A stretch of 64,000 bases of DNA from Nitrospinaceae bacterium (GTDB taxonomy: Bacteria; Nitrospinota; Nitrospinia; Nitrospinales; VA-1): contig BQJC01000003.1 in assembly GCA_021604505.1 (NCBI GenBank), positions 310,001-374,000 of the forward strand. The letters are read 5' to 3'. The translations under genes and the position numbers were made by a program. The notes under the pieces were generated by a model. That model was not told where the DNA came from. It did no database searches and saw nothing but the letters and a program-made list of their open reading frames with translations. Positions 15,037-17,379 of the stretch are shown in pieces (within the stretch, counting starts at the first letter, position 1; the number at the start of each line of letters is the position of its first letter).

Positions 15037-15288
15037 ATGCCTTTGTACGAATATTATTGTGAGGATTGCCAGAAAGAGTTCACGCTTTTACAACCTGCCA
15101 GTGTCAATAAAGAGGATACCACCTGCTCTGAGTGCGGGTCCTCAAAGGTGAACCACAAATTTTCCACCTTCACCTCCAAAATCCAGGGCGTTTCAAAGGC
15201 CAGCAGTAAAAAACCCGTGACCGAGGACGATTACCCCAACAAAGATGTTTTTAAATTGCCCATTCCCCGGCTGAGATCAGAACTATAA
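15037..15288 (+). CDS. FmdB-type zinc-ribbon protein
   Basis: An 83-residue small protein opening with 'MPLYEYYCEDCQKEF', the signature start of the FmdB/CxxC_CxxC_SSSS regulatory-protein family. Two Cys pairs (Cys8/Cys11 and Cys30/Cys33) can bind one zinc ion. The second half is polar and probably disordered. Members are found near many housekeeping genes and their role is not established. It precedes the TPR-cupredoxin gene by about 90 bases on the same strand. Confidence 0.85.
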   Translation: MPLYEYYCEDCQKEFTLLQPASVNKEDTTCSECGSSKVNHKFSTFTSKIQGVSKASSKKPVTEDDYPNKDVFKLPIPRLRSEL

Positions 15289-15375: not shown

Positions 15376-17379
15376 ATGAGCGCAAAAAAACATAAAAGAA
15401 AAAAAATATCCGCCCCAAACGCAGATGAAATGCACCACTCGACCTCCGCGGTGAAACGATTCGGCGTCCCCGTGGTGTGGGTCGCAGTCGTTGGTGTGGG
15501 CCTTTGGGCCTTGATGAACTTTTCAACCCCGTCCAGCAACCTGGTGCCCTATGACCAGATAAAACAAGCCAAAAATGAGGAGTCAAAAAAACCTGCAACC
15601 TCACCGGACCTCGAGACCGTGTCCACCGACCTCGACGAAGATGCATCTAAATTGGTGAAGCAGGCTTCCGACACTCCCGAACCGCAAGCCCGTCTGCCAC
15701 GGGAAACCCTGGAGCATATCGCCAAGGGAATGGAATTGACCGAGCAGGGAAAATACAACCAGGCCAACATCGAATTTGAAAAAGCCGCAAAAATCAGTCC
15801 CGGCTCGCACGAAGTGTATTCCATTTGGGGTGTGGCTTTCAAGATGCAGAAAAAGTACAAGGGCGCCAACAAAAAATTCGCCAAGGCCCACGAACTGGCT
15901 CCCAACGACTCGGAGATCGTTTTCAACTGGGCGATGTCGACCCTGGAACAACGGGATTCCGACGAAGCCATCCGCCTGTTCAAAAAATCCGTGGAAATGG
16001 AACCCAGCAACTACCTGGCCTACAATTACATGGGCAAAGCCTACGGACAGAAAAAATTCTACGACGAGGAAATAGCCAGCTACCGAAAAGCCATCTCCAT
16101 GAACCCCGGATTTGCCCCGGCGCATTTCAATCTCGGCGTGATCCTCAGCATCAAAAAGAAATTTGAAGAAGCCGCCCCACATTTTGAAAAAGCCATAGAA
16201 ATCGACAAGAGTTTTGAAAAGCCCTTTGTCGTGCAAATGCTGACCGCCCTGGGCCGCTACAACGCAGGTAATTCCCAACCCGGTAAAACGCCCGCAAAAA
16301 CAGAAGAGAAGAAACCAAAACCCACTAAAGAAGCGAAAGTGAACGCAGATGCCGGTCTAAAAACGGTCGGCGAAGAGAAATCCGAAGGCTCCGACCACAA
16401 GATGGAAGGGTCCAAAAACGTCAAGGAAACCACAAACCTGAAAGGCAGAGTCCTGGTCAACGGCAAACCGCTTTCGACTCTGGGCGTGGTATTTCTGGAA
16501 ACCAAATCCAAGTTGCGGGTTCCCGAACAAAAATTTCTCGACCTGACCATCCGGCAAACCGGCCTGCAGTTTTTCCCGAAACATAACGTCGTTCCGATCG
16601 GGTCCAAAATCACTTTTTCCAACGAAGACCGCGAGGTCCACAACATTTATTCCAAATCGCAAAACAACCAGTTCAACCTGGGAGCGATGGCGGCAGGCTC
16701 GATCAAGACCATCACGTTGGATCAGCCGGGTCCCGTCATCCTGCGTTGCAATATGCACAAAGGCATGATCGGCACCATTTTCGTCGTGCCCAACGGTTAC
16801 TACACCCATCCCAACGAAAAAGGCGACTACGCCTTCACCGGCGTGAAAAGCCAGGGGTATCTCCTGCAATACTGGCATCCGCAACTGATCCCGGCGGAAG
16901 TTGAAACCCACATGAAACAGGTGGATTTGAAAGGCGTGGATCAAACCGCCGACTTTGATGTGAAATCAGCGTCTCGGCCGGGAGAAATACACGATCTCGT
17001 CGACCCCACGGATTACAACGCCATCGTCGACAATATCGAAAAGGAAATACTTCAGGCCATTCAGGACTGGAAGGCGGGGAAAAAGTCCATCCCCAGGAAA
17101 CGCATGTTGATGGCCATCACCAAACATTACGATGGCGAAGGGCTGAAAGGCGCCCTCGCCAAGAGTTTCAGCCAGAAACGAAGCATGGGCCTGGAAAAGA
17201 AATTGGATGAAATCCGCAAGGCCATCTCCGGGATTGGCGTTTCCAAGGGCGAAGTCACCGAGGAGTCGCTCACCACGAAAGCCAAGCTGGTCATCAGCCA
17301 ACTGCGCACCAACGTGCAGGAACTCGAAGCCCGGCTGAATCCGGATTTTAACAAGAAAGAGAACTCGCAAGAAAATTGA
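15376..17379 (+). CDS. TPR-cupredoxin membrane-anchored protein
   Basis: A 667-residue multidomain protein. A basic N-terminus is followed by one membrane segment (about residues 30-49, 'FGVPVVWVAVVGVGLWALM'), which should place the rest in the periplasm. About five TPR repeats run from 110 to 285, then a Lys/Glu/Pro-rich linker (300-350). Residues 355-475 form a cupredoxin-like domain with apparent type-1 copper ligands His422, Cys458, His461 and Met464 ('LRCNMHKGM'). A carboxypeptidase-regulatory-like strand region and a helical C-terminal domain (about 530-660) follow. The arrangement suggests a scaffold that binds partners by TPRs and carries a copper site for electron transfer or copper handling. 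No named family fits the whole protein. Confidence 0.7.
   Translation: MSAKKHKRKKISAPNADEMHHSTSAVKRFGVPVVWVAVVGVGLWALMNFSTPSSNLVPYDQIKQAKNEESKKPATSPDLETVSTDLDEDASKLVKQASDTPEPQARLPRETLEHIAKGMELTEQGKYNQANIEFEKAAKISPGSHEVYSIWGVAFKMQKKYKGANKKFAKAHELAPNDSEIVFNWAMSTLEQRDSDEAIRLFKKSVEMEPSNYLAYNYMGKAYGQKKFYDEEIASYRKAISMNPGFAPAHFNLGVILSIKKKFEEAAPHFEKAIEIDKSFEKPFVVQMLTALGRYNAGNSQPGKTPAKTEEKKPKPTKEAKVNADAGLKTVGEEKSEGSDHKMEGSKNVKETTNLKGRVLVNGKPLSTLGVVFLETKSKLRVPEQKFLDLTIRQTGLQFFPKHNVVPIGSKITFSNEDREVHNIYSKSQNNQFNLGAMAAGSIKTITLDQPGPVILRCNMHKGMIGTIFVVPNGYYTHPNEKGDYAFTGVKSQGYLLQYWHPQLIPAEVETHMKQVDLKGVDQTADFDVKSASRPGEIHDLVDPTDYNAIVDNIEKEILQAIQDWKAGKKSIPRKRMLMAITKHYDGEGLKGALAKSFSQKRSMGLEKKLDEIRKAISGIGVSKGEVTEESLTTKAKLVISQLRTNVQELEARLNPDFNKKENSQEN

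Follow-up and report, generated by a model that had tools for sequence, protein, structure and literature searches.

A predicted membrane-anchored TPR-cupredoxin protein conserved in the order Nitrospinales

Type-1 copper sites serve electron transfer. A published analysis of N. gracilis suggested a copper-carrier role for cupredoxin-like proteins of the lineage examined here (PMC3578206). Nitrospinae are described in another report as the most abundant known nitrite oxidizers in the oceans, and two cultured representatives are described there as being without a canonical heme-copper oxidase (PMC8026999). The electron route after nitrite oxidation is therefore not settled in this lineage, and a tethered copper protein found across the order would be a concrete candidate for Nitrospinales electron transport.

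The candidate described below was found in a 64,000-nucleotide stretch of DNA from a Nitrospinaceae bacterium (hereafter the window). Its chain joins a membrane segment, tetratricopeptide repeats (TPRs), a cupredoxin, and a helical domain. A literature search by title or by the start of the abstract, whose coverage excluded most subscription journals, found no description of this architecture.

Gene and domain architecture

The gene occupies positions 15376..17379 on the + strand of the window. This open reading frame is complete, with 667 codons between the ATG start and the stop, and all overlapping reading frames in a mechanically produced list, on both strands, are shorter. Full-length relatives with 70–79% identity are present in all four other genomes of the genus. 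This is a genuine gene, and its 667-amino acid product consists, from the N to the C terminus, of a membrane segment, five TPRs, a charged linker, a cupredoxin core with an adjoining CarboxypepD_reg-like sequence, and a helical domain. The whole chain is covered by no Pfam model, nor by any of the 25 NCBIfam models listed. It is therefore a new architecture composed of known parts and one helical domain not assigned to a family. An earlier note on this DNA had stated that no family has this full order, which holds for the whole chain by these two model sets. However, the cupredoxin part is of a known kind, and a second fusion of TPRs with a cupredoxin-like domain is encoded in the same genome.

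A single membrane segment is predicted at residues 29–47 (15460..15516, + strand) from hydropathy and charge bias, and the N terminus is probably cytoplasmic. This is the only strongly hydrophobic stretch (Kyte–Doolittle mean of 2.14 over 19 residues), and no segment past residue 80 of the window protein reaches a value of 1.6. The preceding residues 1–28 are basic. An N-terminal hydrophobic segment scoring at least 1.6 is present in 44 of 46 full-length sequences, with values of 1.59 and 1.54 in the remaining two, and the N-terminal side of the anchor carries more positive charge in 45 of the 46. This topology supports the earlier suggestion of a membrane-anchored scaffold that faces the periplasm.

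Five TPRs and a capping helix span residues 109–291 (15700..16248, + strand). The Pfam TPR_2 model matches in five stretches with 84 bits (cut-off 27), and residues 109–276 of the full-length AF2 model form five helix pairs, in addition to the capping helix, with block pLDDT values of 73–95 over residues 111–290. The best Foldseek matches of this model are consensus TPR proteins, OGT, and MamA. A charged, poorly conserved linker follows at residues 297–351 (16264..16428, + strand), where 5% of positions are invariant and pLDDT is under 50. The anchor, the approximately five TPRs, and the charged linker read from the sequence in the earlier note are thus borne out by hydropathy, the TPR_2 matches, and the predicted helices. 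Overall, the mean pLDDT is 52.4 for the whole chain and 45.4 for residues 351–667.

Residues 538–657 (16987..17346, + strand) are predicted to be helical, as the earlier note had proposed, and have AF2 block pLDDT values of about 44–80. Sequence, PDB, Pfam, and structure comparisons assigned this C-terminal domain to no family. Weak PDB sequence hits, the best with an E value of 5e-4 summed over low-scoring segments, were to apolipoprotein A-IV and coiled coils and were judged to reflect helical composition. Pfam matches are scattered, each of the families listed (25 of 32) appearing in 1–4 of the 22 members, and none of these families was assigned. The M75 family (EfeO-like cupredoxin plus M75 imelysin) is weakly matched in this domain by two of 22 sequences, with a best E value of 0.054. 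When the low-confidence model was compared with known structures, the matches included a FAT domain (Z 10.1, rmsd 4.4, 117 aligned), TLNRD1 (Z 9.9, rmsd 3.2, 109 aligned), and FliS (Z 9.3, rmsd 3.7, 104 aligned). The matches are four-helix bundles of many unrelated kinds, and their Z scores lie below the helical-bundle level of the tool (about 13).

A likeness by eye to the periplasmic helical domain associated with FTR1 was rejected as unsupported, given an hhalign probability of at most 1.5% against four alignments. By eye, the translations at two loci (L067 and L057) include FTR1-type permeases (frames of 403 and 427 amino acids) that are shorter than the FTR1 proteins in other genomes, the longer ones having a CxxCH segment as well.

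The cupredoxin module and its predicted copper site

Pfam matches define a composite module at residues 352–530 (16429..16965, + strand). Its cupredoxin core, residues 390–470 (16543..16785, + strand), matches PF00127 with an E value of 3.6e-5 and 24.5 bits when a 191-amino acid piece is used and with 21.6 bits when the whole protein is used (cut-off 21.2). After the core comes a CarboxypepD_reg-like sequence, which makes the domain composite and corrects its description in the earlier note. Among the 22 of 46 full-length sequences whose module was scanned with Pfam, all 22, including the window protein, match PF00127 at E values up to 1. PF13620 (CarboxypepD_reg) is matched at the same threshold by 19 of them, with a best E value of 4e-5 and values of 0.2–0.23 for the window protein.

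Four residues are predicted to bind copper: His422 (16639..16641, + strand) and the C-x2-H-x2-M residues Cys458, His461, and Met464 (16747..16767, + strand). None of the four varies among the 46 full-length sequences. A PDB search with a profile of the 22 sequences matched the C-terminal cupredoxin of 9cck at an E value of 1.1e-4, and plastocyanins, 5fc9, amicyanins, and others at 0.025–0.23. When aligned with amicyanin, the His422 column falls on the HN motif and the Cys458, His461, and Met464 columns fall on C-x2-H-x2-M; in amicyanin these residues bind the copper. In the 5fc9 sequence alignment, the residue opposite Met464 is not a Met. Invariant positions are most frequent in the cupredoxin segment (31%), followed by the C-terminal domain (22%), the TPRs (14%), the linker, and the anchor (0%). 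In 41 of the 46 sequences the chain contains no cysteine other than Cys458, and the CxxCH heme motif is absent from all of them.

Both AlphaFold models have block pLDDT values of about 23–55 across the cupredoxin region, which is too poor to show ligand geometry. A Foldseek search with the model of the piece was set aside as cupredoxin evidence: 5fc9 and 9cck appeared at E values of about 0.1 among many von Hippel–Lindau chains, and no match reached 0.001 or better. The residues named in the earlier note as the ligands of a cupredoxin-like domain are at the positions given there, in a domain that scores above the PF00127 cut-off, and their invariance together with the amicyanin alignment supports the type-1 copper ligand set that was suggested. 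Judging from the sequence, the chain is probably a blue-copper (type-1) protein.

If copper were no longer needed by the cupredoxin fold, the chain could be a structural envelope protein. Some relatives have replaced ligands: A leucine takes the place of the axial Met in the second TPR and cupredoxin-like protein of the same genome, and an asparagine that of the first His in a standalone relative linked to a kinase. These replacements indicate that the copper sites of this group do drift. However, the retention of all four ligands in every TPR-cupredoxin sequence makes a purely structural role very improbable for this protein.

Conservation in the order and gene neighborhood

The C-terminal domain was used as the marker of the protein. 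At an E value of 0.01 it is present in 61 of the 77 phylum genomes examined; all 61 are among the 64 genomes of the order Nitrospinales, and none is among the 13 outside it. There is one match per genome, except for two in G017. The two copies in that genome (L075 and L076) both adjoin dcd and fmdB, and the assembly may be mixed. In one order genome that lacks a C-terminal match (G027), residues 27–161 are matched at a contig end adjoining fmdB and dcd, and the miss is therefore attributed to an assembly gap. The other two (G031 and G037) have neither a cysS match (E value of 1e-50) nor a dcd match (E value of 1e-20), so the whole locus appears to be missing from both assemblies. A scan of contigs, which requires near-exact short peptides, added three loci (compared with 61 genomes in the profile search), all in records titled Nitrospinaceae, order Nitrospinales. 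This agrees with the nitrogen-oxidizing lineage proposed from the sequence. No relative was found on viral contigs, and among 65 plasmid records matched by the whole protein, the five that were listed show alignments confined to residues 73–299. The gene is thus conserved through the order and is not a local oddity. The earlier note had the anatomy right but missed this conservation and the composite, known module.

The neighborhood was compared at 23 loci from 22 genomes (20 selected loci and the three from the contig scan). The usual order is dcd, fmdB, the TPR-cupredoxin gene, and cysS. The dcd gene lies upstream at all 23 loci, fmdB lies upstream at 22, and cysS lies downstream at 19, indicating that the pairing with fmdB is more constant than that with cysS. 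In the window, the FmdB-family zinc-ribbon gene is located at 15037..15288 on the same (+) strand (TIGR02605, 51.3 bits, cut-off 31.3; Zn_ribbon_8), and this family is the most constant same-strand neighbor. Further neighbors include DUF2851 and cysD/cysNC-like genes. None of the constant neighbors points to a partner protein.

Four loci lack cysS. At L079 the next gene is a convergent TPR/LapA-domain gene, and at L087 a 91-amino acid ORF without a family and a glutamate dehydrogenase gene follow, both convergent. The other two (L082:1-6245 and L084:8152-13999), from two genomes of one genus, carry an efflux set on the same strand: a 172- to 174-amino acid ORF without a family, then OEP, adaptor, and CusA/CzcA-family RND genes. 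The RND genes score 1114.6 and 877 bits with TIGR00914 (cut-off 701.45).

This set suggests a role in copper handling or assembly, in which the TPRs would retain a cuproenzyme, cytochrome, or efflux component as their client and the site would bind, load, or protect copper. Finding the set raised our estimate for such a role, which it places third among the explanations considered, and lowered those for electron transfer and for sensing. A weak TPR_CcmH_CycH match, under its cut-off, points in the same direction. However, the two loci come from one genus and probably represent one event, and no efflux genes are present at the other loci among the ORFs examined. For the adaptor, divalent-metal models also give better scores than CusB does, and none of these models reaches its cut-off. 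Moreover, the protein has the full four-ligand type-1 set, which is typical of electron carriers rather than of copper donors. A copper-handling factor is therefore unlikely.

Relatives of the module and a proposed role

The module matches 14 plasmid records, and in nine of these the matched region is annotated as "methylamine utilization protein", with identities of 26–30%. Eleven standalone relatives were examined. Seven were taken from a list of 37 weaker matches, two from the plasmid records, and two from the genome of the window. Eight of the 11, including the closest, adjoin membrane signaling genes. The other three, including the two most distant, adjoin redox-enzyme genes.

The signaling genes are of several kinds. 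At five loci in the order (L093, L094, L095, L096, and L099), a cupredoxin module of about 204 amino acids is followed by an ORF of 235–277 amino acids and then by a protein of 636–645 amino acids. Pfam identifies HAMP and adenylate/guanylate cyclase domains in the last of these at two loci, and the other three are 47–59% identical to those. From its sequence, this cassette could be a copper- or redox-linked second-messenger system. A standalone protein from outside the order but within the same class precedes a HAMP histidine kinase with a receiver domain and a second kinase; this is the relative whose first His ligand is Asn. The two plasmid proteins precede genes for EAL-domain proteins, one with dCache, HAMP, GGDEF, and EAL domains by Pfam (L068) and one with EAL by annotation (L069).

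This signaling company of the closest standalone relatives makes an adaptor for redox or copper sensing the main rival to electron transfer. The site would report the copper or redox state of the envelope, and the TPR and helical domains would relay it by binding a signaling protein encoded elsewhere. In a 23-row tree, the TPR-cupredoxin sequences form one clade (100/99) that lies nearer, with modest support (80/84, an open fork), to the signaling-linked standalones than to the remaining cupredoxin-like proteins encoded in the genome of the window (94/85 between). Copper binding in vitro is reported for a P. aeruginosa GGDEF-EAL protein with a CHASE4 domain (PMC13277305); the text consulted there makes no mention of a cupredoxin. 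However, the tree carries long-branch warnings that make it unsure, the role of the standalones is unproven, and the one linked to a kinase has an altered ligand. The TPR-cupredoxin protein would also have a cytoplasmic tail of only about 28 residues, and at the loci examined its gene adjoins no signaling gene; what lies downstream is cysS or, at the four remaining loci, non-signaling genes or ORFs without a family. We consider a sensing adaptor possible but rather doubtful.

The redox genes lie near more distant relatives. One standalone (L098) adjoins an ORF that, judged by eye, is a putative twin-arginine molybdoenzyme. In the genome of the window, two standalone cupredoxin-like proteins of 292 and 229 amino acids (L014:3427-7024, contig C8) lie beside a 665-amino acid triheme c and EB_dh (ethylbenzene-dehydrogenase-type) protein, and by coordinates an orthologue of it is located about 1.0–1.2 kb away from 15 of the 37 weaker matches. 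A Type II DMSO reductase profile, tried as a marker for NXR, matched two of 77 genomes at an E value of 1e-100, neither of them in the order. Because it missed all order genomes, this profile is unfit to mark nitrite oxidizers, and the 665-amino acid triheme protein was used instead. The latter reaches E values of 1e-130 or better in order genomes only (best outside, 9.4e-88), a pattern confounded by descent, as is any co-occurrence with nitrite oxidation at the level of the order.

Tentatively, and with somewhat less than even confidence, we favor an inner-membrane-anchored periplasmic type-1 copper protein that passes electrons between docked redox partners. The short N terminus would remain in the cytoplasm and one helix would anchor the chain. 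Partner proteins would dock on the TPR array and on the C-terminal helical domain, and the copper of the cupredoxin core would pass single electrons between these partners in the periplasm. The four invariant ligands and their profile alignment with amicyanin, plastocyanin, and 9cck support this proposal, as do the solitary Cys458 of most sequences, the high conservation of the cupredoxin segment, and the single membrane segment with its positive N-terminal side. Further support comes from the presence of the protein in nearly all order genomes, with the misses attributed to a contig break and to two assemblies that appear to be without the locus, and from the distant standalone relatives near redox genes. 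Against it, the loci examined show no gene for respiration or nitrite oxidation adjoining the TPR-cupredoxin gene, and most standalone relatives, the closest included, lie beside signaling genes.

A more specific form of the electron-transfer proposal, to which we give still less credence than to copper handling, is a lineage-specific periplasmic hub in which the tethered protein wires nitrite oxidation to the membrane in Nitrospinales. If this were true, copper, and not cytochrome c, would link periplasmic nitrite oxidation to the membrane. The protein also offers a way into the study of further copper proteins whose genes, in several genomes, adjoin second-messenger and kinase genes.

Among known proteins, the standalone cupredoxin and CarboxypepD_reg proteins annotated for methylamine utilization share the same composite module with its H, C, H, and M set. 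Those of Caballeronia sp. Sq4a plasmid p1 and Comamonas aquatica plasmid p1_SCLZS63 are 28.0% and 29.6% identical to the window protein over 88% and 74% of residues 351–541, respectively. In contrast to the window protein, which has both a TPR array and a C-terminal helical domain, these are secreted proteins of about 200 amino acids with neither, encoded before an EAL-domain gene. A signaling neighbor of this sort is not seen at the 23 TPR-cupredoxin loci, and three of the 11 standalones also have none. Amicyanin and plastocyanin (PF00127) have the ligand set in common with the window protein, and amicyanin also its C-x2-H-x2-M spacing, but they are single soluble domains, whereas this cupredoxin lies inside an anchored chain.

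Two comparisons can be made within the lineage. The second fusion in the genome of the window (L013:7237-8598, contig C5) likewise places its TPRs ahead of a module that contains CarboxypepD_reg-like sequence and a CxxH motif. It differs in its length of 453 amino acids, in its Leu at the axial position, in having no C-terminal helical domain that could be seen, and in its very distant place in the tree. The cupredoxin-like proteins of the N. gracilis NXR cluster (PMC3578206) are copper proteins of the same lineage, and the 292- and 229-amino acid proteins are likely to be their counterparts. In contrast to the TPR-cupredoxin protein, these likely counterparts are standalone, lie beside the triheme and EB_dh protein, and fall outside the TPR-cupredoxin group in the tree, on long branches. 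The cupredoxin part of the window protein belongs to a known, poorly described group, and the parts of the chain are mostly familiar; their combination is new.
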